A DNA stretch of 64,000 bases. Source: Panorpa germanica (Eukaryota > Arthropoda > Insecta > Mecoptera > Panorpidae). The position numbers and the translations under genes are program-made. The notes below the pieces were generated by a model. The model worked only from the letters and a program-made list of their open reading frames with translations, did no database searches and was not told where the DNA came from. Location: the NCBI GenBank assembly GCA_963678705.1, contig OY783203.1, forward strand, positions 42,842,347 to 42,906,346, written 5' to 3'. Shown piece by piece: positions 1-63,083 of this stretch (its first letter is position 1; every line of letters begins with the position of its first letter).

Positions 1-301
1 TTCAAATTATTATAGGTATTTTAATTAAAGTTATAATGGTAATTAACTGTTTGGTTTCAATGCACTTCACAGTTGCTTAATTTAATTTAAAATTAATTTC
101 CGTAATAAATATTCAATTAATAGTTAATGGTCTTGCTTCTAACTTATTAGCTTCAGAATTAAGAAGCACAAATTTCAGCTATGAATCAAGCATACAAAAC
201 AAAATAGATATTTTCCTAACAGTATATAATAAATGTAACGCTTGCATGCTTAATGGAATTTGTCTATTATTATATATATTATATATATATATGCCATATA
301 C

Positions 302-331
302 TCATAAAGTTATTAAGTAGCGGTGTTGTCA
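302..331 (+). repeat. SINE-A body fragment
   Basis: A 30-base piece resembling the SINE-A block ATAATCATAAACTTATTAGG followed by CAGCGGTGTAGC. It sits directly 3' of a short (TA)n run at about 270-296. Too short to be secure alone; called because the same block recurs in about 20 better copies in this window. Confidence 0.4.
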
Positions 332-416
332 ACATACCATATTAATTATTTTATATATATAATATCAATAAATTTAACAGAAATAACTTCATAATTTATA
401 TATAATTACAAATATA

Positions 417-596
417 GACGACACAGAGGGCGAGAGCATTAAGACTTCACGCAAGACTGCTGTGTGTTCGGGATATCTGTTTAATTTATTATCTATGGTA
501 CATACATAATCGTACACTTATTATGTACTACTTATGTAGCGGTAAATGTAATGTATATATACATATATAGCATTGCAGATAAATAAATTACTTAAA
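417..596 (+). mobile_element. SINE-A copy, degenerate
   Basis: The head reads GACGACACAGAGGGCGAGAG and continues through GACTGCTGTGTGTTCGGGAT, matching the tRNA-like 5' part of SINE-A. The box B region and the block after it are deleted or diverged. A body remnant (TACATAATCGTACACTTATT, then GTAGCGG) and an AAATAAATT-type tail follow. It cannot be a functional tRNA because the T-arm is lost. Confidence 0.7.
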
Positions 597-2850: not shown

Positions 2851-3998
2851 CTCTAAATTATATTCTGTCCAGTTGGTGTTTTATCAAGCATAATTATTTA
2901 TATTTAGTGACAATTAGGCCTTGCCTCATAAGTAGCTACCTAGTGCCGGTTGCTTATTAATGTTTTTGCCATTAGGCACTACATTCTTCTGCATGCTTTC
3001 TGTCATTAAATTACATATCATTGTGCTTAATTACATTTGTGATCCTTATTATATCTAAACATTCTCACTCCTTCCAAAAGAAAATATAAAAAGAAAAACA
3101 AAACATATAAATTGAAACCCCTACTGATTCACTCTTCCTGCTACTCTTCCTCCTGTTTCTACTTTGCCATTCCTTCTCTTCCCTTGCTCCTTTTCTCTAT
3201 TTCCGCCATCCACATTTTCCTTTCACTGACTCTCTTTAATAACTGCACAATATTCTTTTCGCTTTTTACCTTTTTCTCACATGGTTGCTTATATTATTCC
3301 ATTTTAAATGTATCAATGGTGACTGAATTAATAATTAATTATTAAACAACAGGTTAAGTGGATCAATCGAATAATTTAAATAAATTCTAAACAAATAAAA
3401 GTGATATCTTAAGAATCAAATATGAAAAACTCTGTTATATTTAAATAAATAATATAAAAAATAAATTTACATATATCAGATCTTCGTATTCAACTTTCAT
3501 ATTTTATCTTTGATATTTATATTCATATTACATGGTAGGTTAACTTCTTGAAATAGACCTTAAGTGATTCTACCATTAGGGAATATCGTCTAGATTTTGA
3601 AATTCAAATAAATGAACTAATACTATAAATCAGTAAATTAAATGGAGTTTAAAAGTTTTAACTAAATGAATAACAATAGAAAAGTTTTGGTATGATTTGT
3701 ATTCAAATTATTAAAAAAATTATTTTGGGGGATGTGCTGATTTTAACCATGTTCCGTGCGTCACGTCCTGCCGCGTAGTAAGCTATAAGGAAAATGTTTT
3801 AAGGGAAAAATGTGTCTTTCGTTTCCATTATATTTAACCACGGTAATGGAATATAAATAATAACACACTATAGTAAAATAATCTTTTTTTATATATTGTA
3901 TACATATATACCAATATTCATTTTACATATGCATATAATTTTAATAATTGTGGTAGAGATCATATTAAAATCATGGATTTTATATTTTTATTTTTTAG
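2851..3998. other. AT-rich DNA; pyrimidine-rich patch at 3060-3290
   Basis: The patch at 3060-3290 is C/T-rich on the plus strand and opens a 77-codon frame (3112-3345) by composition only. It resembles the pyrimidine-rich DNA at 30470-30780 but I could not align it securely. The rest is AT-rich with nothing recognised. Confidence 0.4.
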
Positions 3999-4052
3999 CA
4001 TCATATATAAGCAATACAGCGCTGCCTAATAAGTTTACGATTATGTATGTAC
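3999..4052 (-). repeat. SINE-A body fragment
   Basis: The minus strand matches the SINE-A body: CATATATAAG, then GCTGCCTAATAAGTTTACGA and TTATGTATGT. Compare the minus copy at 9196-9345, which shares GCTGCCTAATAAGTTTA. No tRNA-like head or tail remains. Confidence 0.6.
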
Positions 4053-4571
4053 AACTGTATATTATACAGTCTACTTTTTTCACAGATAATATACAATCCA
4101 GGTCACAGATTACATTCTATGGAGTATAAATTACACTACAAAATAAATTTTATAACAACCCTAAACTGTATAGGATGTAAAATAAAATACGAGATATTAA
4201 TATAAATTTACACTAGTAACAATTTGCTGATTTTCAAACATTAATTACGAAATGATATTTATTGATGTAAATGTGTCGCCAAATTTTCTGAGGACGCTAC
4301 TACGATAATGCTGCTCTTATTAAAATTTTATGCTTATTCCTTTAATAGTATTATGTTAGGACTACACGTAGGTCATCTATTAATAATGCATTACCTGTCG
4401 TTTCTTAATCCGTTGTTATTAAGCATCTTGAGGTAATGCCATCAAAGGAATAATAAGATATACTTCTATTACTGTCGTTCTAAAAGAACTACATCAGATA
4501 CAACATTTCTATAAACCAGCGAAAAACAGTTACATGCATTTAAGGATTATCTATATGTATTTAGTAGACAT

Positions 4572-4878: not shown

Positions 4879-6838
4879 CCTGTTCTAAATAAACACTCCA
4901 GTGCTTCTTCGCAAGTTGTTTACTAGTATATTTTTATCTTAATTTTTTAATGACAAATTCTAACCTATAAATGATATAAATATTTAGGTTTCAATTATAA
5001 TTCTATTTTTGTTTCTCTGAATTAACTAATAAAGAGCACGCACGCAATTCTATTGACTTCTAATTATAGGACAACAAATAAATTATGGATATTATAAGAT
5101 TAATTACTGACACAATATTCTGAGAACTGTTTCGTAATTTGTTTTAAAATACCTGTTAGATATGTGACTGCGCATTGTCTAAAATGATCTCTCATATAGT
5201 AATGTATGTCTTAATAAATTATAGGTACTTTGCTTGTTATGTTGTAACATTTAGTATCTACATACGGAACTAGTTACTTTTGATACTCCAATGCTATAGA
5301 ATATAGAAATACTATAGACACTATAAAATTTAATGTTTAGTTGTATTAATAAATTTTACTCTGGACTAGAACTCAACTTGCTTAGCCTGACTAGAACCCT
5401 ATCAGGTTCCTAACTAAAACCCTATCAGGTTAAGCCCCTCTTGAGGCAGTCGCATTTTTCTCCTACTAGAATCTTGTGGATCGTTATCGGGATCCAATCA
5501 ACATCTAGTGTAAAATTTTACTCAGGTAGAGACACTCCAACACTGATACTTTATTAACGATTTCTTTTATTAAAATTGCAAAATAGGTTGTTATATCGCA
5601 TATGTCGGTAAAGGTTTTTGTTTGTATATTTTATTTGAACGGCTTAAATCTAATATTAGAATTAGTATCGATGATCCACTCAACGAGGTTGGCAGTTTTA
5701 CCGTTGACTAATAATTTTATGATTGTATATCTGGATTGTATAATCCGGAAATCGAAGTCAAATGCACAGTACCAAGACGTTAAAACCTCAACTATATTTA
5801 ATTCTGTGATTTCTTTTTTTTTTATTATAATTAAGCTATTATATACGAGTATGTAAATTATAAATAAAAATTAAGGTGTCTAGGTTGTGTCTACCTTGTC
5901 AATGAATTCAGTGTCCTCCTCTACCCGATTCCTACGAACACTTAGCATCACGTGATGATAATTAAAGACAATGATCGAAATAGTAAAAACTAATCTGGAC
6001 GAAAGGTCTCACGACAAAAAACAAATGCAAGTGCGTCTATTGAAAAAAACTAAATAAATAAATAACGAAAAACAGCTCTCTCGCTGGTCAAATGTTCAGA
6101 TGGAAAAATGTGAAAATGCGTTCTTTTTAATCTTTAGTAAACACACAGGACAAAACGTCTGAAGGAGTGCTTGTTCCTAACAGAACGGTTGGCAACTGAA
6201 CTGTCCACCAAAATAAAAATATTAAAATTTAAATTATTAACTTTGTTAAATTAATTTTCTAAATTACGAGTTCGTACAGTTACATATGATTTTGTAAGTG
6301 TAATTAAAATTTTTTTTGGTAACAGCTCTAAATACCTTCAGGTAAACTAAAAGAAGGTGAATAAATAATTCTTTGATCCATGTTTACAAAACACATCTTA
6401 TTTAAGTAAGCTATTCTAAAGCATTATATTATCAATAACAAATAAGGAATGAAAAACGAAATAAGTATACATTTCAGGGTTTGTAGATTTATATTTTCAG
6501 TTTTTTTTTTTTATTCAAATATTATTATTCAAACAGAATATCAATTCAATTGATCAATTCTATTTGGTTTACATGTAATACTGAAATGTAAAATATACAC
6601 AAAAGGCATACAGAACGTACGTGAACATCGTATACATATTTATTGAAGTAAAATAATTTGAAAGATATTCGTCTTTACAGTTGAGGAACGCAAACGCATA
6701 TCGATATTCCACTATCTTATAGGGATGTGCACGTATGCAGACTTGTCGAAACATTTCTTTATTTATGTTTTTTTCTTTTGCATTTTCTCAATATGTTATT
6801 TACAATATATGTTGTATAACTTAATGATTATAACTTCA
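4879..6838. other. AT-rich DNA with a small duplicated motif
   Basis: At 5386-5430 the motif AACCCTATCAGGTT occurs twice in close succession; it is itself weakly palindromic (AACC...GGTT). Otherwise there are no genes, RNAs or transposon ends I can support, and the 84-codon frame at 5602-5856 has no recognisable features. Confidence 0.45.
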
Positions 6839-8480: not shown

Positions 8481-8481
8481 A

Positions 8482-8725
8482 CATGATGCCAGGCAACTGT
8501 GTCTATCTTCGTCTTCGTCCTCCGGACTAGAGTTATACTTTCTAAAGTCGGTTGTTATCAAAGTTTAATTGATGATGTCAGAGTTCACAAATATCATAAA
8601 CTTATTAGTCAATGGCGTAAGTTACATATACAAGACCATGACTACATAGAAACTGCCAACAATAGTAGGAGGTCATCGGTGATCGGAAATAGGCCGACGT
8701 TAAATAAATCAGTTTAAAAAAAATT
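8482..8725 (+). mobile_element. SINE-A copy, near full length
   Basis: Carries, in order, a degraded head (ACTGTGTC, then CCGGACTAGAG), GGTTGTTATCAAAGTTTAAT, ATCATAAACTTATTAG, ACTGCCAACAATAGTAGGAG, GTCATCGGTGAT, and CGGAAATAGGCCGACGTTAA plus ATAAATC and an A-rich tail. A 72-codon open frame inside it (8499-8717) is a by-product of the repeat. Confidence 0.85.
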
Positions 8726-9195
8726 AATTATTAGTTATATATTCAATTATATAAAATATTGTTAGTTACAATATATATATAAATTTCAATTTAAATTCAT
8801 CTTGAGATTTCAATTATTTCAATAAAGAAATAAATTTAAACTTATACAAATAAGAAATATTCCTTTATAGACTTTATGATAGAAGTGATTGAAATTGAAA
8901 ATCTATTTTACAACTGACGAAACAGTTGTGGCCAACATGAGATCATCAGAGATCCAACATTAATCTATATGTTCTACAATAAAAAAGAAATAAGGAAAAA
9001 AACCGGTGATTTTTTATTTTTGTAGAAATCTACAGATGTGGTGTGGTGGTGTGTTATATGATTCCATGTGTTACAGAATTCACGTTTTTTCCGCGTGGGA
9101 TTATTCCTCAATGGGGTATAGGTCTTAAAATATTAAATTAAAAGATTCACAATTGATGTGAAACTTTAGCATTGTACTGTATTTTTTTCGAGTTT
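8726..9195. other. AT-rich DNA, nothing recognised
   Basis: AT-rich sequence with homopolymer runs; no repeat, gene or RNA supported. Confidence 0.45.
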
Positions 9196-9345
9196 AACTT
9201 ATTTAATATTGGACTGTTTTCGGTGCCGAACTTATCACCGACGACCTTCTACTTTTGTGGTGTCATGGCCACATACATATGGGCTTCATCGCTGCCTAAT
9301 AAGTTTATTATTATGTATGTACATAATAAATTTAACTTATTAACA
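9196..9345 (-). mobile_element. SINE-A copy, 3' two-thirds
   Basis: The minus-strand copy retains the tail (CGGTGCCGAACTTATCACCG, ACGACCTTCTAC), the central GTGGTGTCATGGCC block and GCTGCCTAATAAGTTTA. It fades near ATAAATTTAACTTATTAACA, so the tRNA-like head is missing. The 87-codon frame over it is a shadow. Confidence 0.8.
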
Positions 9346-9877
9346 AATGTAAATGTAAATTTTAATAACGAAATATCAACTAATGTAGAAGTATTTTTAA
9401 CTATGATAGCAGATAGCTATGAAGCAATTGACTGAAGTAAGCCGTGATTTTGCTACATCTGACATGGAATAACACTTCATAAAGGCATGGTTTTAATTTA
9501 ACCAGTTACCAAAATGCGTGTATATCACCGATACAATATGCAATTAAAATTTTAACTAACTGACTGAACGTTAGAATCAATTTTGTTATCGTTATTCATT
9601 ATAAAAGGATATTCATTACGCGCTAATTCAAACGTGAAAGCAGTATTTCATTATTACTAGAATGTTTATTTGCGTGTTATACAAAATTTTATTTGAGATA
9701 GAATTTATTCGAATATAAATCAATTATTTTAGATAGGCTATAGTATTGGGTTATAGTAAAACTTAAATATAAAAACCGCTTTATAGAATGCCCGAGTTCT
9801 ATTTATTTCTAAACGCATACGATAAAGATAAATATGTCAATTTTGTTTGTTTTAGAAGTCAATTTAAAAAGAGTTGG

Positions 9878-10897: not shown

Positions 10898-11588
10898 TTT
10901 TCCATGAGTTTCATACATATTACGCATTACAAAACTACTCGTATATGCATTTATCTCTTCAAATTGACATATTATATAACTTTATTCATCATATCTTTCT
11001 TCGAGATAATGACACCAACAATATGGGGCTGATTACCATAATCAACATGATTTCCATTATATTTAAATTACGTAAATGTTCTATCTCTGCAAATGGAAGA
11101 ACTCTGTCATTCATTTTAACATGAAAGGGAAAATAAGAATACCACAAAAATACATCAGTAACCATTTATTTCCTTCCAATGTCGTAGGGTTATTTCTTCT
11201 ATTATATGCCAAGGAAGTTATCAAAACTCGAATAGAATTGAATTTTTTTATATCAAGAAACATTTTTTTATTACGAATATTTTTTTTACTGAAATCAATA
11301 GATTAATATCAATTCTATTACATTCACAACTTAAGTGTTATATATACCAACTCGTAAATACATGAAATTTTGTTGTAAACGTTTGCAATATTTATTTATT
11401 TATCTGTGTTCATTACAAATAAATCCATTGTTCATACTTTATAAATTACGTTGTACAGTAAAAATGTTAAGTCAGAGCGATGATACTTGCCGCTAGATTA
11501 CTGTGTCTGCAAGTTCAATTTCTGAACCAGCGCTATATATTATGAGTTTGGTTACATTTTCCAACTGATTATATATTGTATAATCAAA

Positions 11589-11591
<3 letters not shown>
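10898..11591. other. AT-rich DNA, nothing recognised
   Basis: Contains one TACTCGTA octamer (10936-10943). No gene or repeat supported. Confidence 0.45.

Positions 11592-11674
<83 letters not shown>
11592..11674. repeat. (TA)n microsatellite
   Basis: About 83 bases of uninterrupted TA. Confidence 0.97.

Positions 11675-14402: not shown

Positions 14403-14483
<81 letters not shown>
14403..14483. repeat. (TA)n microsatellite
   Basis: About 81 bases of pure TA ending directly at a duplicated block (14486-14553). Confidence 0.97.
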
Positions 14484-15618: not shown

Positions 15619-17266
15619 TATTTCTACAGAGAATTTTTGATAAGATTTAAGAAAGTTACTAATTTTAAAAAAGGTTAGCGATAAAACAAAAATAACATTT
15701 CAATTAAAACCGTAACAGTGTTGTCAGGTTGTCACAAATAAACCTTAAATCAAGAAAATATTTATATAAAATGCCATTTGTAATTTAAAAAATGGTTTAT
15801 GTCGACAATCTTAATATATATTAGACTACTTCGATGCTAGGCCTACTACCGACGAGTTTCTAGTATGTGTCCAGATTTTATGCTATTCTATATTTATATA
15901 CGTATGCTACCTATTTAATTTGTTTTACTTACTTCACTACTTAAGTTCAGCTTAATATACTTACTTCATTACTTAAGCTCAGAATAATGAAAATTAATTT
16001 TTGTTAAAACCATGATAAAGTTTTTACTATGAGTCTTGTTTAATGAGAATATGAAAACTACAAGTGCTTCAAAAGTAAAAACAATTCAACAAGTAGCCGT
16101 AGATAAGCAAGTTAAATTAAAAGAAAACTACAAGGTTAATTAAAATACCGTGATTTCAATAAATAAAGAAATTCTCCTTGTATAATACACGAACGACTTT
16201 AGTTAATAATACTTTTACGTTATTCTTCTTAATTTTACAACATTTCTATTTACTAGTTTCAAGTTCAAAGTATTTGTATTGCTATATAAGTTTTCTAGTA
16301 CATTTGTTGTATATTTCTGATGTATATTTTAAATAAACCTAGCTAAAGCTATCATTATTTTAATTTTAAAGTTTCTATTTATTAAATGGAGTTGGATAAC
16401 GGTAATTTTGTTTTTCTATGTGCAAAAAAGGGAAAAAGCACTTCTTTTAAATGGTGAATGTTTTGTATTAACATTATCTGTATTAAGTAAACGTGAAAAG
16501 CACATAAAAAAAACAGAGACAGACCTTTTTAAGTTAAAAATAAGTACTTGAAACAGGGTGGTTATTTGTTGTTGTAAACATAGTTCGCAGGTAAAGTATT
16601 AGTAAAATATTTTTAAAATGAATATTAATTTTTGATAGTTAATTTTAATGGTAATTTTGTTTAACCAGTGTGTGTAAGGTGTTGTACGCGTACACATAAT
16701 AATAGTACTCTTAATATTACCAGAGTGCATAAAAAACCAGAACCATAATAAAACATCATTCATTGAAATAAATTAAAGTGGGTGCTGACATAAATTAAGT
16801 AAAGCCAGTTTAAAAACATACTCGTAAATTAAGTAGTTAAAATTACATCTATTAAAGTTAATATATTTTATGTAATCATAAAACTTAATATGCATAAAAT
16901 AATGAAAATTATAATTATATCATTGTCCATGATAATGTTAATGAGCTTTTTACATCGAGATTATCCCGAATGAGAGATCAAAAAGCTTTCGAGAATGTTA
17001 TAGCGAGTAATATTCTGCATATTATACCTATGTATATAAAAGTAATACAGTATTGCGTGAAGTAAAGTTCACTTCAACATTTTTGGCAAGCACTAAAAGT
17101 TTTAAACGGCAGCAAAAAGAATATGGAAATAAAAACTCAACTACAAGAAGTTAATGTTTTGAGCATTTAAATGTTTTTGAATTAGGGCTGAGAATAGGAC
17201 GAATTTACAATTCGATGTTATTACAAATAATTAAAATATGTAAATGTTTACTCTTAATAGATGAAA
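15619..17266. other. AT-rich DNA, nothing recognised
   Basis: Long AT-rich stretch with no open frame, tRNA-like fold, repeat match or inverted terminal repeat that I could find. Confidence 0.45.
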
Positions 17267-17500
17267 CCGTGACTGAGAACGATAATGCTTGACGCCAGCT
17301 TATGGTAGATTTGCGAACTATTGTTTTATTGGATTGGATTGTTATAGCACTATATATTCTCTAGGTTTCGTTGTAGTTTCGATAAATTGATTATATGCTA
17401 TCATAAAAATATGAGACAGTGGCACAATATAAATGGCAAACATTATAGGAGGTCATCGGTGATAAAACAACTATTGGAAACGTACCGATGTTTAATAAAA
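17267..17500 (+). mobile_element. SINE-A copy, highly degenerate
   Basis: Recognisable by order of blocks: CGTGACTGAGAACGATAATG, CTTGACGCC, TATATTCTCTAGGTTTCG, GATAAATTGATTAT, CATTATAGGAGGTCATCGGT and a CCGATGTTTAATAAA tail. Indels are frequent, which suggests an old insertion. Confidence 0.65.
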
Positions 17501-18748
17501 CAAAATCCTGTTTGTAGCAAGAATTGTAGCAATGTCAAATAGAAAAGTTTATATATTTTTAATAGGTTTATTTTGTGTTTCACTATTATTTATTAGCACC
17601 AGGACATTACCTCTAATTCTCAGTGTACCGAAAAAATTAATTTTGGTTCATTTCTTCGCATATAGAGTGAAACAATTATACATACAAATAATAAGTAAAA
17701 ATTAATCGATGTTTTAATCAAATAATTTTGAAAACTGACTGAGTGCTTTTACAAATGAAATAACTAATTTAATAATAAACAATTTATAAATTCTAAAATG
17801 GTAAAATTATTACAGTCATGCTAATTATTCTGAATAACGAGAAATCTTTTTCAGACTCACTAAAAAGGATTTGCAAAATTAATTACTTCAAATACCTATC
17901 CTTGAATTTTATTTAGTTTACAACATTAATTGGATTAATATAGAGAGATATATAGAAAATGAATGTCGATATCAATAACCGATGTCGGTTTTTTAATAAC
18001 TAACATTTTGACACCACCACGTTTTATATAAACGCATTTAGTGGCTTTTTGACTGAGCACATAGCAGTTAGGCATTTAAAATTGAATGTTAAGCGTATCG
18101 GAGACAATTAAAGTTTTTCAGAGAGCTTTTCCATAATTTATAATAAGAGTGGCTTTGTGAAAGAAAATATATTACAACACGTAGGCAGCCACGAAGGAAA
18201 TAAAATTTATTTCAAGTTAACAAAAAGACATTTTTAAATAGAATTGTATAATTATTTGCCAAAGAAAAACTAAATTAAGATTTCATTTAAACAAGGAATT
18301 ATCAGTGATAGTAAGCTGATATTTTGCAAAATGTTTACTTAGGTAATTTTTTTTGCCAGTCCAAAATTTGACTCCAAATTGTCTGCGTTATATTTATATA
18401 TGTAAGTAAAAATTAATACTGTTATTAAAATATTTGATTGAATTTTTTATAGACAAATTTAAGTAATTTCAAGAAAATAAGTTGTTGCAAACTTGTATAT
18501 TTAGCATTCATTGATGCTGAAAATTACTGAAAATTAATATTTATCAGATTTAATGAATCATATTAAACAAAAGTGCATTTTAATTATAAGATATGGGCTT
18601 ATTTTTCTCAACTTAATTCACTTCACTCTTCATTTAAATAAATCCTCTCCATCGTTGAGTACAAGCAGTTTTAGATTAACCCATATACTGACTAAGCTAC
18701 AGCTTAGAGCTTATAAAATATAATAACTTGCTCTCAGAAAGTGACTTT
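17501..18748. other. AT-rich DNA, nothing recognised
   Basis: No gene, RNA or repeat supported. Confidence 0.45.
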
Positions 18749-19939: not shown

Positions 19940-20032
19940 TTAAACTATACATACGTAAGCATAAACGAATTCAGCGTAGAAGATCGTCGCTGATAGAACT
20001 AAGCATCGGAAATAAGTCGATGTTAAAAAAAA
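19940..20032 (+). mobile_element. SINE-A 3' part
   Basis: Body and tail remain: TACATACGTAAGCATAAACG, GTAGAAGATCGTCGCTGATA, AGCATCGGAAATAAGTCGAT and GTTAAAAAAA. The head is missing, with an internal deletion between the two blocks. Confidence 0.7.
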
Positions 20033-20667: not shown

Positions 20668-20855
20668 AGTGAACCAGAATTCTATTTTCTGGGTTTGGTT
20701 ATTATCAAGTTAAATTTATTATGCACATACATAATCATAAACTTATTCAGCAGCGGTTGAGCCTGCTTATATAAGGCCACGACACCACAAAAACCGCCAA
20801 CATAGTAGAAGGTCGTCGGTTAGCACTCAGAATTTGAATAGAATTTAATTAAAAG
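20668..20855 (+). mobile_element. SINE-A copy, 5' truncated
   Basis: Begins near TGTGTAGTGAACCAGAATTC, then TTTTCTGGGTTTGGTTATTA, ACATAATCATAAACTTATTC, GCCACGACACCACAAAAACC, GCCAACATAGTAGAAGGTCG and TCGG, ending in a diverged TTAATTAAAA tail. The central blocks are well preserved. The tRNA-like head is lost. Confidence 0.85.
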
Positions 20856-23371: not shown

Positions 23372-23611
23372 GACAACATATTGGGCAAGAGCATTGGTGC
23401 TTGACGCTGACTCTTGCGCCTTCGGGTTTGATCCCCGGACCAGAATTATAATTTCTGAATTTGATTGTTATTAAGTTAAATTGATTATGAACTTACTAAT
23501 ACGTATACTTATTAGGCAGTGGTGTAATTCACACATATAATAGTCGCGACACCACAAAAACTGATAGGTCTCAGAAACAGAAATAGACCGACGTTAAACA
23601 AAAAAAAAAGT
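23372..23611 (+). mobile_element. SINE-A copy, full length (reference copy)
   Basis: The head GACAACATATTGGGCAAGAG has a box A-like part; CTTCGGGTTTGATCCCCGGA holds box B. Then come GATTGTTATTAAGTTAAATT, ATACGTATACTTATTAGGCA, GTGGTGTAATTCACACATAT, GTCGCGACACCACAAAAACT, AGAAATAGACCGACGTTAAA and an A-run. The GCCAACATAGTAGGAGG block is deleted. The tRNA-like head, unrelated body and A-rich end are the standard tRNA-SINE layout; amplification would depend on a partner LINE. Confidence 0.92.
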
Positions 23612-24967: not shown

Positions 24968-25200
24968 GACGGCATAGTGGTCGAATGTGATAATGATTGA
25001 TATAGCTATATTTTCTGGGTTTGGTTGTATCAAAGATAATGATGTGAGAACTCACAAATTTCATAACATTGTAAGGCAATGGTGTAGCCCACATAAACGA
25101 AGCAACAGTACCATAAAAACTGCCACCAGTAATAAGAGGACGTCGGGATGGAACTCAATATCGAAAGTAGGCTGACGTTAAATAAATATATTTAAAAAAA
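24968..25200 (+). mobile_element. SINE-A copy with shortened head
   Basis: The head GACGGCATAGTGGTCGAATG jumps to TATATTTTCTGGGTTTGGTT, so box B is deleted. Body and tail are complete: ACTGCCACCAGTAATAAGAG, GACGTCGG, GTAGGCTGACGTTAAATAAA and an A-rich end. A 62-codon frame inside it is a shadow. Confidence 0.88.
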
Positions 25201-27159: not shown

Positions 27160-27570
27160 AATGCGAGGGTTAGGTGTATCACAAATGGAGCAGCCTACTC
27201 TACACTTTCATCTCTAGAAAGAACAAAAACATGTTTGCAAAAATTTTTGCTGAATAATATGATAATATTAGCACACAACGCATAGGTATATTAAATTAAA
27301 ACACAAAAAGTTGTGCACGTTAAGAGAAGACTTTTATTATAATGGAAAATGCGACGTGCCTGTCTGTTGTTATCGGTAAACATTGCGCGCTAAATTATTA
27401 TACGACAAGCAAGAAACTATGTAACTGAAAAAAACTATGTATGTACCGTTGGTCATGTAGGCGAGTGCGCCCCTACATTCTAAACAGTGACTCTTATTTA
27501 TTAGAATACATCCATTTCTATAATTTAGTTATTGGAATGTTTAAAAGAACTGATAAAAAATAATATCTTA
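27160..27570. other. AT-rich DNA with a GCGAGGGTTAGG motif
   Basis: GTGTAATGCGAGGGTTAGGT at about 27160 resembles the right end of the small element at 9878-10012. Nothing else recognised. Confidence 0.4.
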
Positions 27571-27643
27571 ATAACTGCCAACATAGTAGGAGATCGTCGG
27601 TCGTCAGCATCGGAAATAGGCCAACGGTAAATAATTAAAAAAG
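27571..27643 (+). repeat. SINE-A 3' fragment
   Basis: AACTGCCAACATAGTAGGAG, ATCGTCGGTCGTCAGCATCG and GAAATAGGCCAACGGTAAAT followed by A-rich sequence. This is a clean copy of the SINE-A 3' third. Confidence 0.85.
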
Positions 27644-27721
27644 AAGATATGTAAACTGACCTGTTTTAATAATAATTAAATCGTGAACATATCTTTTTAA
27701 CGATTAGATTGTTTAAAATTT

Positions 27722-27841
27722 ATTTTATTTAATATTCACCTATTTCCGGTGCTGAGTCCTATCACCGATAATGTTCTACCATGTTGACAGTATTAGTGGT
27801 GTCGTGCCTCATATATGTTGGTCGCTGCCTACTTAGTGTAC

Positions 27842-27904
<63 letters not shown>

Positions 27905-28024
27905 ATATATGTATATAATCAATATACGTTGATAATAAGTAATCCCAGAGAACTTAACTTTGGTTCGGAGATCGAACTCGAAGACATAGTAGTCTAGCAA
28001 CAATGCTCTCACTCACAATATCGT
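27722..28024 (-). mobile_element. SINE-A copy interrupted by an internal (TA)n expansion
   Basis: On the minus strand the whole SINE is present: tail (CCTATTTCCGGTGCTGAGTC, CTATCACCGATAATGTTC), central GTGGTGTCGTGCCTCATATA, then CGCTGCCTACTTAG. A (TA)n array occupies 27844-27900. The 5' half follows (GATAATAAGTAATCCCAGAG, TTCGGAGATCGAACTCGAAG, TCAACAATGCTCTCACTCA-like). The array replaces the AT-rich part of the body. Confidence 0.88.
27844..27900. repeat. (TA)n microsatellite inside SINE-A
   Basis: About 57 bases of pure TA lying within the minus-strand SINE-A copy 27722-28024. Confidence 0.97.
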
Positions 28025-28030
28025 CTGCAA

Positions 28031-28139
28031 GTAATCAGTTAAATTAAACCATATCCAAACCCATATAAAATAGTTCTGCTCTGAAAATCGAACCCGAATA
28101 CACAACAACTTTACTTCTAACCAAGACTATGTGTAAACC
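28031..28139 (-). repeat. SINE-A 5' fragment
   Basis: The minus strand holds the 5' half: CAGTTAAATTAAACCATATC, CAAACCC, CTCTGAAAATCGAACCCGAA and TACACAACAACTTTAC. It lies a few bases from the preceding copy in the same orientation, so it may be a partial tandem duplication of the head or an independent insertion. Confidence 0.65.
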
Positions 28140-28989: not shown

Positions 28990-29130
28990 CAGTATTTGTG
29001 GTATGGTGATGAAGCACATAATCAAGTTAATTCTGATAAAAACCAAATCCAAAATATATAGAGCGAATTCTAGAATCCAACCCAGATGCACAGCAGTCTT
29101 ACATCAAGCATCAATGCTCTCAACCACTGG
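28990..29130 (-). mobile_element. SINE-A 5' half
   Basis: The minus copy with GCACATAATCAAGTTAATTC, ACCAAATCCAAAATATATAG, GAATCCAACCCAGATGCACA, GCAGTCTTACATCAAGCATC and AATGCTCTCAACCACTGG. The head is well kept although box B has decayed (AGAATCCAACCC). The 3' half of the SINE is absent. Confidence 0.8.
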
Positions 29131-30018
29131 AGCATTGAGATACGTAACAACAAAATACTTTTTTTAAAATGGACTAAGCACAACTAGCTGGTAAGCCGGC
29201 TACCCTTGACAAGCTGGTAAATAAACTTTTGTGACTAGTTTGGATGTAATGATTCCGAATGTTTTGTTTACCAGTTTCTATTTTGATAATTTAGGTCTAC
29301 ATCTTGAGAAAATGGCGGCTAAAAACGGTTTTTGAGATATCGAGTTGCACCGCTGTAAAAAGGAGCATTTTACTGAAAATTGGTATTGATTCAAAAGGCG
29401 AATGACATTCAACAATGCTTAAAATTTTGCTCATCTTTCTTATGCCCATCATTGTACGTTATAAACACATAACACTGTGCTGCTTTAATGCTAGATCTGA
29501 AGAGAAATATTTAAACCACAATTTTACAAGCTGAACATTTTCTGTTCTAAGCGCGGTCCAGAAATACGTGGCTCGTATTATGCCATATAGCTAATGCGGC
29601 AAAGATTGCAAGAAGGAAAAAACGATATATCTGTACTGTTTTTGTCAATTAAGCCTTTTCAAATGTTTGATTAAGAACTGATTATACTTCAATGTCATCA
29701 ATTAGTACAAATGTATCTCTAATACAGATAATGAAAGATAATACCACTGTATAATTGCATTTGCAATGGAAATGGATATAAAAATACATTTCGACCTACT
29801 TTACTTGTTTACGAGCAAACAAATGTAAAAACAAATCGGATTTTGATAAACAATCACAGCAGGAAGAGAAGCAAACATCATTTGAAAGTAATTACGAGTA
29901 ACTCTCAAAATGCTAATATAGTTGTTTGTGTTTTATTTGTTTTGAATAGAATTATTTCCGCGAAGACCTTGTTCAATATTTAGTTCTGCTAATCAGAAAA
30001 ATATCGTTTTAAAGAGTC
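29131..30018. other. AT-rich DNA; complex sequence at 29280-29420
   Basis: 29280-29420 (GAAAATGGCGGCTAAAAACG, GAGATATCGAGTTGCACCGC) looks like a fragment of a complex interspersed repeat, but no second copy was identified. Confidence 0.35.
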
Positions 30019-30249: not shown

Positions 30250-30320
30250 ATAAATATCCTTAACATTGTAGGAAGTCATCAGCAATAGGTCTCAGCATTA
30301 GAAATAGGCTGAGTATAATT
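30250..30320 (+). repeat. SINE-A 3' fragment
   Basis: ATCCTTAACATTGTAGGAAG, TCATCAGCAATAGGTCTCAG and CATTAGAAATAGGCTGA match the SINE-A 3' third with scattered substitutions. Confidence 0.7.
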
Positions 30321-30552: not shown

Positions 30553-31164
30553 CTCTAATGGTCGATAGGACAGTGTTCTTTTTATCTCATTAGTATATAC
30601 CCTACAAACTATCACGCTTCACTCCTGTTTTTAATTTCTTTTCTCTTACTTTTAACCTTATTCATCCATTTTATTCCCTTCTTCTTCCCTTGCAGGATTA
30701 CTTCGTTTTCCTTCTTCTCCTTATACACCTACTCTTAATATTCTCTAATGTTTCTTCTTCCATGCCACACATTCCTCTGCTCCCCTAATATTACTGAATA
30801 ATTTCTTGAAAATGGGTGTCTACTTGAATAAAATTATTAATGAATTCTATTTTAAAAGATAAGAAACAAATTTTTTTAACAACCTAAGAAAAAAATAGAA
30901 TAATGAATTTACTTAAGAATTTATATTCGTTATAAATTATTAAATAAGCTTCAGTCACAACATTTTTTTCAGATTTTGTACGCAACTCTATACGGCCGGA
31001 AAACTGAAAATTTAAAATAATATACGCATTCTGAACGGAGTAGAGATGGTGGCTATAGAACCAGCTATTTTTGATTAAAACATATTTTACGAGCAAATTC
31101 ACATTTTACGTAATTCACATATATGAGGCCGTGGAGGGATATATGGTAATTTATACTTTATTTG
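30553..31164. other. pyrimidine-rich then AT-rich DNA
   Basis: C/T-rich to about 30785, then AT-rich. No gene or RNA supported. Confidence 0.4.
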
Positions 31165-31592
31165 ACTAACTTTTTTTCAAAATTTGGAATTCTTTTTACA
31201 AAATTACAACTTTCTAATAATTTTTACCATCAGCAAAAACCGCACCCGTGACTCCAAATAAAATTGGGATTATTTTTTAATTAGATTCTAAATTATTATT
31301 GAATCACAAAGTTCCATACCAGGCCTCTCAATTTTCACAACGCCTTTTCTATAACAATTTGAATTTTTAAATTTCGAAATATGTTTCCATTGAATGGCAT
31401 AATATACATTGTGATATACATGCAAAATTTTTACGAATTAACAGTTATACAGCAAAAAGCACCCACTTTTTCCAAAATGACGGTTTTCCAAGAAATTCAG
31501 GGAACAGGAACTCCAAAAATCTTACAATTTGTTACTCTACGAAATAGTAAATTTTCAAAAAGATGCATATATCCTTTTTCGAGCCATAATGC
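31165..31592 (-). repeat. dispersed repeat A, copy 1 (minus)
   Basis: The reverse strand matches the repeats at 52672-53135 and 58733-59052 in order: TATGGCTCGAAAAAGG, TTTTTGAAAATTTACTATTT, CGTAGAG, CCCTGAATTTCTTGGAAAAC, CGTCATTTTGG, TTTTTGCTGTATAACTGTTA, ATTCGTAAAAATTTTGCATG and TGTATATCAC. The far end (GAGTCACGGGTGCGGTTTTT) matches 53060-53085. The 76-codon plus frame here is on the opposite strand and is a shadow. Confidence 0.8.
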
Positions 31593-31599
31593 AAATTGC

Positions 31600-32080
31600 A
31601 CAAACATATAAACAAATAAACATGGAACATAATAAATAAGATTTTAAAATAGAAAATAAAATGTAATAAGTTAAATCACAATGCGGAACTATTTATATCA
31701 GTAATTGTAAAAAAGGAAACTGACAACCAACAATTGTATCACAATTCACATCTCTATTTTTATTATTATTTTTCATATCTAAGTGACACACTGACAGATA
31801 AGACACGTTTTTATCAGATGCATTATACAGTCACCAGACAACTGCAGCGAATATTATATGAAGCATAAGATGAATCGTTTTCAATTTTATACACTACGAA
31901 AAATTAAATTAGTACTTCTTTTATTATTTATTTTGAATTTCTTATAAATTATTTAAAATAAAACTCTGTAAAATTATTCGTACTGACTTATAAATATGTA
32001 GATACGAGGAATGCCTAAAAAATAACGACATTGATGCTGTAAAACTTTTTACTTTAAATTTATACATATTTAGTTACTAT
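31600..32080. other. AT-rich DNA; possible transposon end near 32007
   Basis: TACGAGGAATGCCTAAAAAA at 32003-32022 resembles the terminal sequence at 26227. Nothing else recognised. Confidence 0.35.
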
Positions 32081-32176
32081 CAGAAAAGAGCATTGATACT
32101 GTGACATTGTTGATTGATTGCTGTGCCTTCGAGTTTTCTGGGTTTGGCAATTATCAAGTTTAATAGATTATGTATA
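32081..32176 (+). mobile_element. SINE-A 5' part
   Basis: CAGAAAAGAGCATTGATACT, GATTGATTGCTGTGCCTTCG, AGTTTTCTGGGTTTGGCAAT and TATCAAGTTTAATAGATTAT. It is cut at a TA where the transposon 32177-32704 begins. The expected 3' half is not found on the other side of that transposon. Confidence 0.75.
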
Positions 32177-32704
32177 CATAGTGTCTCATAAAGATCCAAC
32201 TATTTTAGGTGCGAACGAGATGGTACGATACCGCGAGAGTGGGGAGAGCGTTTAATAATTTTTAATTCCTATTATGCCGTACACGGGAGAGTAACATTGT
32301 GTTTTTTTGTGTGCGTACGTTTTTCGAAACCAGCCATTCGACTTAACTATCGATTGCGGAATATTTGTGAGGCGCCAAGGAGCCCAGACATTACTCCATA
32401 CGATTTTCTTCTTTGGGGTTACTTTAAATCATGAGTACGATAATTCTCTACAATCTTTAGTGGAGTTGAGGACAAATATCACAGAAAAAATTGCATCGAC
32501 TTCCAGACCTCTTCCTCAGAAAGTTTTTAGAAACCTACATCTGAGAATCGAGGAATGTTGTCAGCGAAACGAACGTCACCTCAACGATATTATTTAAAAA
32601 ACATACAAATTTGTTTCTTTGCGAATTAATTCTTAAAAAATAAACAATTTTAAAAGAAACCTGTTTTCTCTGTTTTATTGTTCTTTGAGAGATGAGACAC
32701 CCTG
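32177..32704 (+). mobile_element. internally deleted Tc1/mariner-like element, 528 bp
   Basis: The left end CATAGTGTCTCATAAAG and the inverted right end CAGGGTGTCTCATCTCTC are terminal inverted repeats flanked by TA on each side (32175-32176, 32705-32706). The interior keeps only the C-terminal part of a transposase (32351-32597). A full element of this type would be well over 1 kb, so most of the gene is deleted. It inserted into or abuts a SINE-A fragment. Confidence 0.75.
32351..32597 (+). pseudogene. transposase C-terminal remnant (Tc1/mariner-like), frameshifted
   Basis: In one frame, 32351-32401 reads toward APRSPDITPYDFLLWGYFK, a hallmark of DDE transposases of Tc1/mariner-like elements (the D of PYDF lies where the last catalytic acidic residue is expected). 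A stop follows at TCATGA. The reading then continues in the frame 1 nt back (HEYDNSLQSLVELRTNITEK, then PLPQKVFRNLHLRIEECCQR) to a stop near 32597. The N-terminal DNA-binding part and first catalytic residues are absent. Dead gene. Confidence 0.8.
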
Positions 32705-37663: not shown

Positions 37664-37867
37664 TGCTTCCGTCCAACCAGCGACGAACTAATATAATATT
37701 GCCAGTATTTACGGTGATGCTCATATATGTCTACCTCATGGCTGCTTCAAATGATTTATGATCATCAAATTACATACTCACACAAAATAGCACATAAACA
37801 AATTAATTTTGACAAAACCCAATCCCAGAAAATATATCAGTGATTCGGAGATCGAACCCTCGTTTAC
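37664..37867 (-). mobile_element. SINE-A copy, nearly full length, diverged
   Basis: Minus strand: GCCAGTATTTACGGTGATGC, TCATATATGTCTACCTCATG, GCTGCTTCAAATGATTTATG, GACAAAACCCAATCCCAGAA, AATATATCAGTGATTCGGAG and ATCGAACCC. Box B (GGTTCGAT inverted) is intact. The extreme tail and head ends are eroded. Confidence 0.78.
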
Positions 37868-40734: not shown

Positions 40735-40964
40735 TTTAATATATTTCCGTTGCTGCGTCCTATCACCGACGACCATCTACTGTTTTATGGAGTCACGACC
40801 TCGTATATGTGAGTTACACCACTGCCTAATAAAAGTATGACATTTGCGAGCTCTCACATTATCATCTTTCATACAACCAAACCCAGATAATATACCTCTG
40901 GTCCGGGGATCAAACCCGAAGACACAGAAGTCAGCGTCAAGCATCAATACTCTGACTTACTGTG
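40735..40964 (-). mobile_element. SINE-A copy, full length (minus)
   Basis: Minus strand: TATTTCCGTTGCTGCGTCCT, ATCACCGACGACCATCTACT, GGAGTCACGACCTCGTATAT, ACACCACTGCCTAATAAAAG, CAACCAAACCCAGATAATAT, TCTGGTCCGGGGATCAAACC, CGAAGACACAGAAGTCAGCG, TCAAGCATCAATACTCTGAC and TTACTGTGT. Head, body and tail are all present. With 23372-23611 and 60972-61240 it defines the family consensus. Confidence 0.92.
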
Positions 40965-41852
40965 TTTTTTTTATTTTTAGGAACTGTCTTTTTATGATCA
41001 ATTTAGTCTGAAGCAGTGTTACCAAATAGGTCTCAATGTTTTTTTTTACGTAAATGGTTACTTTTTATGTTAAGTAAACTTTAAATACATATAACTGTTT
41101 TTAGTGGTACTTTTAGTATATTTTTATTTCCTTTTTTTAAAACGTAGCGAATATTTGCGTCTATCTCTGAATTTTCTTTTGAGTTAAAATGAACACTGAC
41201 AGCACAACAGGTGCACATTCCGAGAATTTATTGTGGGTAACTTTAATTGTTATATATACTCGTATAACTTCATGCCCAGCGAAAATTCGCGCTAAGTAAA
41301 TCTTATGGCTACATTAATGTTGCTAAAATGCCGGAGTCATTATTACTACGGTTGGTTAATTATACATATATTATTTATTTAAATATTATAAATTTATATT
41401 CATAAATCACAATTAGTTTTAGTTATTGTCTTTGTTTTAATATTTTGGAGTAAATTCAATATAGATTCAGTTCCAAATTGGAACTACCCGTAAATCTTGT
41501 AGACAAAATATAAAATATAAAAAAAAAAATATAAAATAGCAAAAAAATGTTTTTTTAATATATCAAAATTTTAAAAATTTTAGTTTTTCTTTAATTTAAA
41601 AAAAATTGTATTAGGTATCACACGAAATCATTAATCTTTTTGCAGAACTGGCGGAAGCAGCAATAATCAGTTGTATACAATCACAATTGTCCCGATTGAA
41701 TCTGGGCACATCTAAATTTTCATTCTAAATTTGTGAGATATTTGTGATATTTGTCTATTGGTTAATCCAGGCCTGCTTAGGTTAGTTATTATAACTATTA
41801 TATTGGCATAATTTAGGGTAAGTTCGAATATCAAAAATATGTTATATTTGAC
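40965..41852. other. AT-rich DNA, nothing recognised
   Basis: No supported feature. Confidence 0.4.
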
Positions 41853-42060: not shown

Positions 42061-42448
42061 CGCTTAAAAAGTTAATTCATTTCCGTTACTATTTCTAAAT
42101 TTAAAATACATAGAAACATATTCTCTTTATGTTTTTCCTGATTGCTCAATAAATATAACTGACATGTAACAAATCAGCAAAATAATTCTTCGATACTGAG
42201 TTATCTTTTATACCTATGCAAAAATGTTCTTAATATTTCTTAGAAAAATTTAAAAGCAAACTCTTTTGTTATACGGAAGTAAGCTGACAGGTTTTGAATT
42301 GCTATGAGATCAGAAGAATTGCATTTTACATTGTGATTCTAAATAAGTTTGCTCCATATGTTCAGAATTCTTTTTCTGTAATCACAACAAAATTCATTGT
42401 AAGTTTTTTTTAAACAGGTGAGATGTAATATTTTTTTTAAATTTATTT
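42061..42448. other. AT-rich DNA, nothing recognised
   Basis: No supported feature. Confidence 0.4.
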
Positions 42449-42530
42449 AATCTGATAACAACCAAACACAGAAAATGTAGCTATAGTCCTGAGATTGAAC
42501 CCGAAGACACAGTAGTCAGCGCAGTAGACG
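42449..42530 (-). repeat. SINE-A 5' fragment
   Basis: Minus strand: CTGATAACAACCAAACACAG, AAAATGTAGCTATAGTCCTG, AGATTGAACCCGAAGACACA and GTAGTCAGCG, the tRNA-like head and adjoining body. Confidence 0.8.
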
Positions 42531-46899: not shown

Positions 46900-47038
46900 T
46901 TTGGCTTTGGAAATGGAAGGGGAAAAACTGAGAAATAAGAAAATTATAAATTGTAAAAATTATGTATTACGAAATGTTTGTAAAATGCTAACGAATAACT
47001 ATCAAAAGTTGATGCACTCAAAATAAATATAAAAATAA
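46900..47038 (+). mobile_element. retroelement-like 3' end, tail copy 4
   Basis: ATGCTAACGAATAACTATCA, AAAGTTGATGCACTCAAAAT, then AAATATAAAAATAA, the shared tail. It runs directly into a SINE-A 3' fragment at 47039 with no spacer. Upstream limit uncertain. Confidence 0.55.
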
Positions 47039-47146
47039 ACTTATGGGGCAGCGGTGTAACACATTCTCTTCACTAACATTCTAGGAGGTCGTCGGCGATA
47101 GCGCTCGGCATCGCAAATAGGACGACGTTAAATAAATTAAATAAGT
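47039..47146 (+). mobile_element. SINE-A 3' part
   Basis: TTATGGGGCAGCGGTGTAAC, ACTAACATTCTAGGAGGTCG, TCGGCGATAGCGCTCGGCAT and CGACGTTAAATAAATTAAAT, a good copy of the SINE-A 3' half. Confidence 0.82.
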
Positions 47147-52573: not shown

Positions 52574-52671
52574 GATGGCACAGTGACCAAAGCATTGATC
52601 TTTGAGGCAAGACTGTTGTGCGTTATAGTTCAATCTCCGCTCCAGCAATAAATTTTTTGGGATTGGGATGT
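52574..52671 (+). mobile_element. SINE-A 5' part
   Basis: GATGGCACAGTGACCAAAGC, ATTGATCTTTGAGGCAAGAC, TGTTGTGCGTTATAGTTCAA, TCTCCGCTCCAGCAATAAAT and TTTTGGGATTGGGAT. The box B position reads AGTTCAATCTC. It is cut where dispersed repeat A begins. Confidence 0.78.
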
Positions 52672-53135
52672 TTATATGTTTATGCGATTCGTATGGTAGC
52701 TCGAAAACGGCTCCGCGCATTTTTTTGAAAATCGTCTATTTCGTAGAGAAAAAAACTCTAAGACTTTTGGCGTCCTCGGATTTTCCACTGAATTTCCTGG
52801 AAACCCGTAATTTCGGAAAAACTAAAAAAAATTTTTTTACTTTTTGCTCTATAACTTTTAATTCATAAAAGATAGAAAGTTGAAACTTGGAATGTGTATT
52901 ACGGTGCAAACGTTTTTGGAAAATTAGAAATTGAAAAATTGGAAAAGGGGGCGTTGAGATAAATAATGGGCCCGATAGGAAAAACACTCAAATTTTGGAT
53001 TACTTAATAATAAAATATATTATTAAACTAAATAAAATCAAAATTAAAAAATTTAATTTGGGGGCACGGGGACGGATTTTGCCGAGAGTAAAAATTAGGC
53101 TTGAAAGTTGAAATTTCATATACGGGCTAACTATG
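52672..53135 (+). repeat. dispersed repeat A, copy 2 (longest)
   Basis: Ordered blocks shared with 58733-59052 and minus 31165-31592: GTATGGTAGCTCGAAAACGG, CTCC, TTTTTGAAAAT, TATTTCGTA, AGACTTTTGGCGTCCT, CTGAATTTCCTGG, AACCCGTAATTT, GGAAAAACTA, TTTTGCTCTATAACTTT, ATTCATAAAAGAT, GAAAG, then GGGGGCACGGGGACGGATTT. On the minus strand two copies keep the peptide LVFPKLRV.RKF..KS.DAK open. Function unknown; possibly part of a larger element. Confidence 0.85.
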
Positions 53136-53883: not shown

Positions 53884-53955
53884 TTTTAATATATTTATTT
53901 AACATCGGCCTATTTCCGATGCTAAGTCCTATCACCGACACTGAGTGTTGGTAAT
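53884..53955 (-). repeat. SINE-A 3' fragment
   Basis: Minus strand: TATTTATTTAACATCGGCCT, ATTTCCGATGCTAAGTCCTA, TCACCGACACTGAGTGTTGG. This is the extreme 3' end of SINE-A, including the TTTATTTAAC tail, with the central block gone. Confidence 0.85.
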
Positions 53956-55242: not shown

Positions 55243-55897
55243 TAAAAATAGACCACTAGCTTATATACTCTTAGCGTTGTTTTTTATAATTTATCAGAAT
55301 CGTGAAGAAACTAAGTACGTTAGTCTTCAGAGAGGTGAACTGATCAATAGAGAGAAATAGTTATTTTAATGTAGAGAACCTACACTACATCTAAGGTATT
55401 CTTTACCTGTCTAGCCTATATAAATCCATTGTATAAGGGTTGCAATTTATGCAGGTCTTAAGTTAACTTGATGTCTGTAGGGCCAGTGTAATAATAAGGT
55501 ATAAAAAGCAAGGTATAAACATGTAAAATAATAAAATAGCAAGGTATAAACATATAGTTGGATAATTCTACCCCTAGCACGCATGATAGCATCAATTCTT
55601 ACGATCAAGGTATATAAGGATTTAACTACCACTAAGGTCTGCAATGATGGCGGCCAGCCATTTTCACGACCCGATTTTTTTGCTCACACCACCATGACCA
55701 TTCTACCTATTAAGGCTTTATAGTAATTATAAAAAAGTTATAAATATTTCACTTTTCTCAACAGCAGCGAGTATAGGCATAACGCTTCAGCGGCATCTGT
55801 TTTCAAATAAACACATGCCCAGGTAAACTTGTCTTGTCTTAAAGTGCAGTTTAATACTTGCTAGCCTGTCACAAGCTAATTCCTAGGTTAATTTTAA
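55240..55897. other. AT-rich DNA with a small direct repeat
   Basis: AGCAAGGTATAAACAT occurs at 55507-55522 and again at 55538-55553. A 65-codon minus frame (55447-55644) is unrecognised. Confidence 0.4.
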
Positions 55898-56010
55898 CGA
55901 CACAGTTGGGCGAGAGCTTGATGCTTGACTCTGTGAGAATACTGTGTCCACGGGGCCAGAGATATATTTTCTGAGTTTGGTAAAAACAGGTTGTGTGTAG
56001 CCATAGAAAT
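55898..56010 (+). mobile_element. SINE-A 5' half
   Basis: CGACACAGTTGGGCGAGAGC, TTGATGCTTGACTCTGTGAG, AATACTGTGTCCACGGGGCC and AGAGATATATTTTCTGAGTT. The head is well kept, with the box B core deleted. It is cut shortly before the next retroelement tail copy. Confidence 0.82.
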
Positions 56011-59707: not shown

Positions 59708-59824
59708 GACGACACAGTGGGTGAAAGCATTTATGCATAGTGCTGTCTGCAGTGTCTTTGGGTTCGATCCCTGGGTAAAAGAAAATTTTTCTGGGCTTTG
59801 TTGGTATCAAGTTGAATTGATTTG
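59708..59824 (+). mobile_element. SINE-A 5' half with intact box B
   Basis: GACGACACAGTGGGTGAAAG, CTGTCTGCAGTGTCTTTGGG, TTCGATCCCTGGGTAAAAGA, TTTTTCTGGGCTTTGTTGGT and ATCAAGTTGAATTGATTTGA. Box B (GGTTCGATCCC) is perfect. The 81-codon minus frame over it is a shadow. Confidence 0.87.
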
Positions 59825-59971
59825 AGCGCCTTAAAATCATGAAAATATTAGATACGTATTTGAAACATTTAAAGTGATTGATTTTTTTTTATTTACACAG
59901 ATATATATATGTTAAGATAAAACAATGAATTATATTTTCCGTTTTAGATTATTATTAAATTTTATCTGGTT

Positions 59972-60012
59972 ATGTGGTCATATAATCATAAACTCATTAG
60001 ACAGTGGTGTAG

Positions 60013-60048
<36 letters not shown>

Positions 60049-60971: not shown

Positions 60972-61240
60972 GACGACACAGTGGACGAGAGCATTGATGA
61001 TGACGCTAAACTGCTGTGTGGTCGGATACAATTCCCGGTACAGAGATACATTTTCTGGGTTTTGTTATCATCAAATTATATGAAGTATATACATAATCAT
61101 AAACTTATTAGGCAGCAGTGGGGTACACATATATGATGCCACTGTAAAACAAATACTACCAACATAGTAGGAGATCGTTGGTGCTAGAACTCAGCATCGT
61201 AATTACACTGACGTTAAATTAATTAAATACGAAAAAAAAT
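60972..61240 (+). mobile_element. SINE-A copy, full length
   Basis: GACGACACAGTGGACGAGAG, CATTGATGATGACGCTAAAC, TGCTGTGTGGTCGGATACAA, TTCCCGGTACAGAGATACAT, TTTCTGGGTTTTGTTATCAT, ACATAATCATAAACTTATTA, GGCAGCAGTGGGGTACACAT, ACCAACATAGTAGGAGATCG, ACTCAGCATCGTAATTACAC and TGACGTTAAATTAATTAAAT plus an A-run. All blocks are present in order. The minus-strand 69-codon frame is a shadow. Confidence 0.92.
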
Positions 61241-62735: not shown

Positions 62736-62891
62736 TTATTAGATGTTATTAATGTTGCCTTATCATAAACATTGAAGGGGCTCAATTACATCTATTATTA
62801 TATCAATTTCTCAAGGATTCAAACCTTTGTTAAAATTATTTATTTTCGTACACTTGTTTCATATATATAAATAAATTCTCAACTCATTTTA

Positions 62892-63083
62892 GACCAGAGA
62901 AATTAAGATTGGCACTTCGGCACTAGCGTTCGATCCCAGGATCACCGCTACATTTTCTGGGTTTGTTTGTTATCAAAGTTAAATTGATACATAATCATAA
63001 AACTTATAACGCAGCGAGAGAACACATGAGGTTACAACACCATATAAACATGTTAGCAGACGTTAGATAAATTAAATTCAAAT
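62892..63083 (+). mobile_element. SINE-A copy, internally shortened
   Basis: AGACCAGAGAAATTAAGATT, TAGCGTTCGATCCCAGGATC (box B), ATTTTCTGGGTTTGTTTGTT, ATCAAAGTTAAATTGATACA, TAATCATAAAACTTATAACG, CACATGAGGTTACAACACCA, then GCAGACGTTAGATAAATTAA. The TAGTAGGAGGTC block is deleted. Confidence 0.83.

Follow-up and report, generated by a model that had tools for sequence, protein, structure and literature searches.

The DNA analysed here, called the window throughout, is a stretch of 64,000 nucleotides on the X chromosome of Panorpa germanica (contig C21, 42842347-42906346), and the genome searched was ijPanGerm4.1, as 464,208,970 bases in 249 contigs (PMC11464959 gives 464,228,243 bases in 254 scaffolds, the longest of which is X, with 47,989,005 bases). 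About 28 copies of a tRNA-derived SINE, SINE-A, had been claimed for these 64 kb in the initial annotation. With a single young copy as the nhmmer query, 29 window matches were obtained at E<0.01; the controls, 10 first-order shuffles and the window reversed, had none. An iterated SINE-A profile gave 29 window matches at E<=0.05, of which 28 reached E<=1e-3, and again none in these controls. Four queries (the profile, the young consensus, the young copy and the window consensus), each of which detected 25-28 window matches at E<=1e-3 and none in the controls, were then merged into 29 places, 19 on the + strand and 10 on the - strand, that make up 6.6% of the window. Since 27719-28109 consists of two pieces, and 59708-59851 and 59928-60023 are one interrupted copy, these places correspond to 30 pieces and about 29 copies, which agrees with the earlier count. 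The features are listed below; they were detected with the profile unless another basis is given.

23372..23609, +, SINE-A copy named in the initial annotation, with head, body and (A)n tail (profile and single-copy searches)
23378..23397, +, D-arm/box A-like part of its head (position of the D-arm block aligned to tRNA-Ala; box A degenerate)
23425..23435, +, its box B/T-arm, GGTTTGATCCC in this copy and GGTTCGATCCC in the young consensus (sequence; labelled by the box B consensus)
23590..23609, +, its 3' tail, GACGTTAAAC(A)10 (sequence)
290..336, +, fragment (E=1.5e-4)
417..558, +, copy without the 3' part
3998..4054, -, body fragment
5692..5773, -, weak fragment (E=2.4e-4)
8481..8712, +, copy with body variant B
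9193..9346, -, copy without the 5' part
11469..11595, +, head and part of the body, followed by (AT)n
15831..15910, -, 3' fragment
17260..17501, +, full-length, strongly diverged copy (K2P 0.40; profile and consensus distance)
19972..20030, +, tail-only fragment
20671..20837, +, 5'-truncated copy with a perfect 11-bp flanking duplication, TAATATTGTGT (profile and flank test)
24968..25188, +, copy with body variant B
27563..27639, +, tail fragment
27719..28025, -, full-length copy, expanded internally by (AT)n
28032..28109, -, second fragment, adjoining the 27719..28025 copy
29000..29134, -, head and part of the body
30250..30315, +, tail-only fragment (found by full-length queries only)
32087..32192, +, fragment
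37668..37860, -, copy without the 5' part
40742..40965, -, nearly full-length copy with body variant B
42440..42521, -, head/body fragment
47002..47144, +, 3' half and tail
52574..52685, +, head, abutting another repeat at 52690
53891..53953, -, tail-only fragment (found by full-length queries only)
55897..55981, +, head fragment
59708..60023, +, one copy, interrupted at 59852-59927
60972..61229, +, best-scoring full-length copy, with a 9-of-10 bp flanking duplication (profile and flank test)
62889..63059, +, copy

The box B head, the AAATAAATT/A-rich tail, the occurrence on both strands, the truncation and the strong divergence that had been described were all recovered in the window copies, which are about 220-310 bases long when full-length. 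The first 192 bases of the 23372 copy are 80-83% identical to many copies elsewhere in the genome. Sixteen of the 17 coordinates that had been proposed match a significant hit; the exception, 48091(-), was not accepted as a significant SINE-A copy, the nearest match (48271-48325, E=0.0089) lying beside an imperfect palindrome. This palindrome (48123-48276) and a second one (49296-49483) match their own reverse complements at 77% and 73%, respectively, and are perhaps MITEs. Some open frames do overlap copies (e.g., 9157-9435 and 3857-4129); seven open frames of the window had no Pfam match above the cut-off, and no exact SINE-A core was found in viral contigs. Long (AT)n microsatellites were also observed in the window (4573-4659, 11592-11674, 14403-14483 and 55100-55237); the one at 11592 begins where a SINE-A piece ends, and a further (AT)n run lies within the 27719-28025 copy.

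Anatomy and age of SINE-A

A young consensus was obtained from 27 loci that were read with their flanks, among 39 other genomic places scored. Young SINE-A is a 264-bp element that starts with GACGACAC and carries an exact box B, a body and an (AAAT)n/poly(A) tail. At 24 of the 27 loci the copy starts at GACGACAC or one base later, covers the element up to its final or penultimate base, and has TTAAATAAATTAAATAAA(A)n, or some variant of it, as its tail. The identity to the young consensus is at least 99% at 16 of the 27 loci, seven of the copies being identical to it over the aligned part, and a 102-base young stretch has 59 exact matches in the genome. An exact flanking duplication of at least 9 bp was found at 23 of the 27 loci, compared with 15 of 702 mismatched flank pairs, and none of 9 bp was found at the other four; two of the 23 (L002 and L015) have AT-rich low-complexity flanks. 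Hence, duplications of variable length accompany the A-rich tail at these 23 loci, as in a SINE, and no terminal inverted repeats were found in the young consensus. When 11 window copies were subjected to the flank test, duplications were seen at the 60972 copy (9 of 10 bases) and at the 5'-truncated 20671 copy (11 bases, perfect), and most of the 11 had no convincing duplication, as expected from their age. The duplications, the A-rich tail, the sharp 5' end and the truncation are marks of target-primed reverse transcription. The element is short, putatively non-coding, and dispersed in many copies in both orientations: an 18-base core (2 mismatches allowed) has 5,441 sites in the whole genome, 2,687 forward and 2,754 reverse, and the reversed pattern has 14. 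Two of the copies on X (L003 and L017, at about 9.75 and 8.59 Mb of C21) have their upstream flank in common, which points to segmental duplication on this chromosome.

The window copies belong to the same lineage as the young ones and are old. The window consensus (26 pieces) is identical to the young consensus at 218 of 235 positions (93%), and the single window pieces differ from the window consensus by 9-31% (K2P 0.09-0.40), a spread of ages that bears out the long period of activity proposed earlier. Since the two consensuses are alike while the pieces have decayed, the source of SINE-A has changed little. Thus SINE-A is old and decayed in the window, and near-identical young copies are present elsewhere in the genome. 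A second body variant (variant B, GTGAGAGCTCACAAATATCATA) marks the window copies at 8481, 24968 and about 40742, and exact matches to its pattern occur at 64 sites besides these three; the youngest copies seen carry the first body variant.

The head of SINE-A was compared with tRNA sequences from this genome, nine in all and of four kinds (Lys, Arg, Cys and Ala). The best match was tRNA-Ala(TGC) (L065), with alignment scores of 23.0 for the young consensus and 19.75 for the window consensus, Ala thus being the best of the kinds compared. With a gap-tolerant scoring, which was picked after the first alignment results were known, none of 1000 dinucleotide shuffles reached the score of either consensus, and for three body segments used as controls 904, 155 and 219 of 1000 shuffles were as good. 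The D-arm and T-arm blocks align in order, with 16 identical bases in the T-arm of the young consensus; box B (GGTTCGATCCC) is intact, the D-arm block has about 8 extra bases, and box A is degenerate. Under local scoring 2 and 5 of 300 shuffles were as good as the head, and the result was weak when box B was removed (17 and 19 of 300); a semi-global alignment with free end gaps was uninformative (252 and 164 of 300). No tRNA was detected by ARAGORN or the Rfam tRNA model in the window and the young copy, or by ARAGORN in both consensuses, and the minimum-energy fold of the head (RNAfold) is an extended hairpin and not a cloverleaf. The absence of a tRNA fold from the head, which the initial annotation had named as grounds for refutation, therefore applies if taken literally, so that the tRNA claim rests on sequence homology. 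The cloverleaf has been lost in many SINE heads and hence is not a requirement, and the head of SINE-A appears to be tRNA-derived by descent, not by fold. A TTTT tract, which could stop Pol III early, lies just 3' of the head in both consensuses.

Mode of spread and relation to known SINEs

The tRNA-Ala homology, the precise 5' end, the A-rich tail, the flanking duplications and the 5'-truncated copy uphold the earlier classification, and SINE-A is very probably a tRNA-Ala-derived SINE of Panorpa germanica that has spread by retroposition, with a preference for the X chromosome. In the mechanism that we propose, RNA polymerase III would transcribe the element from a promoter inside its head, with the intact box B and the degenerate box A. 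A LINE that accepts poly(A) ends would then reverse-transcribe the RNA at a nicked target, and this target-primed reverse transcription would yield the flanking duplications of about 9-17 bp as well as the 5'-truncated copies. SINE-A may have been at work for a long time from its little-changed source, possibly up to the present, and would land or survive preferentially on X, where the window would be its densest part among the places looked at.

The putative helper was sought by comparing the 3' sequence past the reverse transcriptase at four LINE loci that have long open frames (L059, L060, L070 and L071, a clear 3' end being present in L059 and L060 only) with SINE-A; the best match was an A/T run with E=0.04. 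When the genome was searched with the tail alone no match was returned, a result that carries no information since common words are skipped. A tail in common with the SINE is not required of a poly(A)-using LINE. One of the four LINEs, whose frames reach 926 aa, has a poly(A) end and is a candidate helper on the sole ground that such an end might be enough.

A LINE family whose frames reach 946 aa was also read at six of its 3' junctions (L060 and L075 on C14, L074 on C2, L072 on C16, and L073 and L076 on C21). At two of them a spliceosomal RNA, matched from model position 1, begins no more than 20 bases from the LINE end (U1 at L060, 150 bits; U5 at L074, 85 bits), and Rfam gave no match at the other four. 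The L072 and L076 junctions have CCACTATGATGAT in common. Two junctions that had looked snoRNA-like by eye were not borne out by Rfam or by folding. The L072 and L073 junctions fold no better than shuffles. Such junctions might be template-jump chimeras, or the LINE might insert immediately 5' of small-RNA genes.

Three other origins of the window copies were considered and rejected. The small size and high number of the copies, the internal palindrome GATTATG..CATAATC, and the palindromic repeats nearby (e.g., 48123-48276 and 49296-49483) could indicate a non-autonomous DNA transposon (MITE), moved by a transposase and not via RNA. This is next to impossible in our view, because the duplications are of variable rather than fixed length and lie next to an A-rich/poly(A) 3' tail, which weighs heavily, and because the young consensus is devoid of terminal inverted repeats, 5' truncation occurs together with a duplication, and the head is homologous to a tRNA. 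That the copies represent 3' ends of a LINE or of several LINEs, with no independent SINE, is extremely unlikely: tail-only pieces of the kind that LINE 3' ends would leave are present at 19972, 27563, 30250 and 53891 of the window and in one further locus (L039), but the young copies start at one sharp 5' base, carry a tRNA-like head and are flanked by duplications, and the four LINE stretches compared do not match SINE-A. That a few insertions were multiplied by segmental or tandem duplication to crowd the window is also very unlikely, since the window copies are unlike one another in truncation, orientation, subfamily and divergence, are evenly spread, and show no obvious long shared flanks in a self-comparison of the window; the common flank of L003 and L017 does show that copies have been duplicated on X, and the pieces that end at 28025 and 28109 are adjacent.

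The retroposed SINE proposed here would work like three groups of insect SINEs, to which it is likened by their descriptions. HaSE1 and HaSE2 of Helicoverpa armigera, two families with a common head and central domain, are likewise tRNA-derived, with a body, duplications (5-18 bp) and A and B boxes, of which box A is degenerate in SINE-A, and 5'-truncated copies are described for HaSE1 (PMC3272025). HaSE1 is 386 bp long and has a cloverleaf head and a TGA-repeat tail that matches HaRTE1.1 (PMC3272025), whereas SINE-A, compared by description only, has 264 bp and an AAAT/poly(A) tail, with no cloverleaf or partner found. PxSE1-PxSE3 and their relatives, from Plutella, other Lepidoptera and a baculovirus, are tRNA-derived SINEs of 252-339 bp with hundreds to thousands of copies and, in PxSE2 and CfSE1, ATTT-type tails; the heads of PxSE1 and PxSE3 were compared with tRNA-Arg (PMC8010984). 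Metulj of heliconiine butterflies resembles SINE-A as an abundant insect SINE with an A-rich ancestral tail; it has very many subfamilies, its hits are confined to heliconiine genomes according to its authors, whose correlations leave the LINE partnership unsettled, and no X bias is mentioned in the available portions of that account (PMC6685494). No account of SINE-A was found in the literature on SINEs in Lepidoptera, Hymenoptera and Mecoptera and on Panorpa transposable elements, surveyed mostly by titles and including few subscription papers, and the titles on Mecoptera and Panorpa indicated no described SINE.

Local density and the X chromosome

The density of SINE-A was sampled with one profile in 200 kb of random autosomal and 50 kb of random X sequence. 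The profile gave 28 matches in the 64 kb of the window, 4 in the autosomal sample and 3 in the X sample, i.e., a density in the window 15.6-fold that of the pooled 250 kb and 7.3-fold that of the X sample; the difference between the X and autosomal samples alone was not significant (p=0.15). The frequency of one copy per 2.3 kb that had been proposed thus applies to the window and not to the genome elsewhere, with its 7 profile matches in the 250 kb sampled. This profile was built from window copies, and the young consensus, built outside the window, reproduced the contrast (26 window matches versus 5 in the 250 kb). The core pattern was found 7 times in the window, versus 0.75 expected per 64 kb from its 5,441 genome sites. 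The sampled sequence suggests about ten thousand SINE-A pieces genome-wide, as an order of magnitude only. Within the window the copies are evenly spread (4, 4, 4, 5, 2, 3, 2 and 3 of 27 per 8 kb). Eleven other window repeats were tried, and nine of them, excluding 52690 and 51279, whose families were each represented by another member, were summed without an overlap check; together they are only 1.4-fold denser in the window than outside, and singly they range from depleted to 3 per 64 kb versus 3 per 250 kb (repeat 6835), with two at 2 versus 0.

X accounts for 10.9% of the placed sequence, and SINE-A patterns exceed this share. An exact old-type pattern has 23 of 96 placed sites on X (2.6-fold, two-sided p 2e-4), and a second one at least 21, among the 100 listed of 108 (at least 2.2-fold, p 3e-3). 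Variant B, whose pattern was designed on three window copies that were removed before counting, has 28 of 64 (6.3-fold, p 3e-11), and the exact 102-base young pattern 15 of 57 (2.9-fold, p 1e-3). Unplaced sites were dropped (2 of 98 old-type, 0 of 67 variant B and 2 of 59 young, as well as 1 of 41 in the LINE group below), and the four sets are not fully independent, the two old-type patterns having at least one copy in common. Two X sites of the first old-type pattern lie near the duplicated L003/L017 flank; with one fewer (22 of 95) p is 7e-4. The abundance of SINE-A is thus a local and X-chromosomal excess.

Other families were placed as well. One LINE group, taken as 41 equal-scoring copies (150 scored of 6918 candidates), has 2 of 40 placed copies on X. 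The repeat family of window 42981-43434 has 1 of 39 best other places on X and 17 on chromosome 5, an excess on a chromosome that is 5.7% of the placed sequence; these are from the best 40 of 3723 candidates, nearest to an X-born query. A repeat of about 470 bases with three window copies (31147-31635, 52690-53157 and 58666-59078) is X-rich, with 13 of 39 best other places on X, from the best 40 of 5200 candidates, also nearest to an X-born query. As the comparison families differ in their X share, the X bias is a property of some families.

A general retention of old DNA in a gene-poor region of X, unrelated to SINE-A itself, could in principle produce both the X excess and the hotspot, and we consider it a serious possibility that falls short of an even chance. 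It is consistent with the X-rich 52690 repeat (13 of 39 among its best listed places), with the seven frames that lack a Pfam match above the cut-off, and with the window counts of repeat 6835 (3 versus 3 in 250 kb) and of the two small repeats (2 versus 0). However, the youngest, identical copies are X-rich already (15 of 57), the other nine window repeats reach 1.4-fold where SINE-A reaches 15.6-fold, and the LINE group has 2 of 40 placed copies on X. That the youngest copies are already X-rich would favour, as the cause of the SINE-A bias, a bias at insertion or rapid loss from autosomes rather than slow retention. It is conceivable, and in our estimate improbable, that SINE-A is X-directed, by a helper that inserts preferentially into X chromatin, and that the resulting SINE layer could mark or organise the chromosome. 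Panorpa males are X0, and if this were true the layer might have a role in dosage compensation or in silencing the lone X of the male germ line, and the window would be one of its densest parts.

If SINE-A is new, it would provide an insertion marker system for scorpionflies, together with a long age series from one slowly changing source. An X bias that is seen even among identical copies represents a countable case of chromosome-biased retrotransposon build-up, and it could be used to test explanations based on insertion, selection and recombination.
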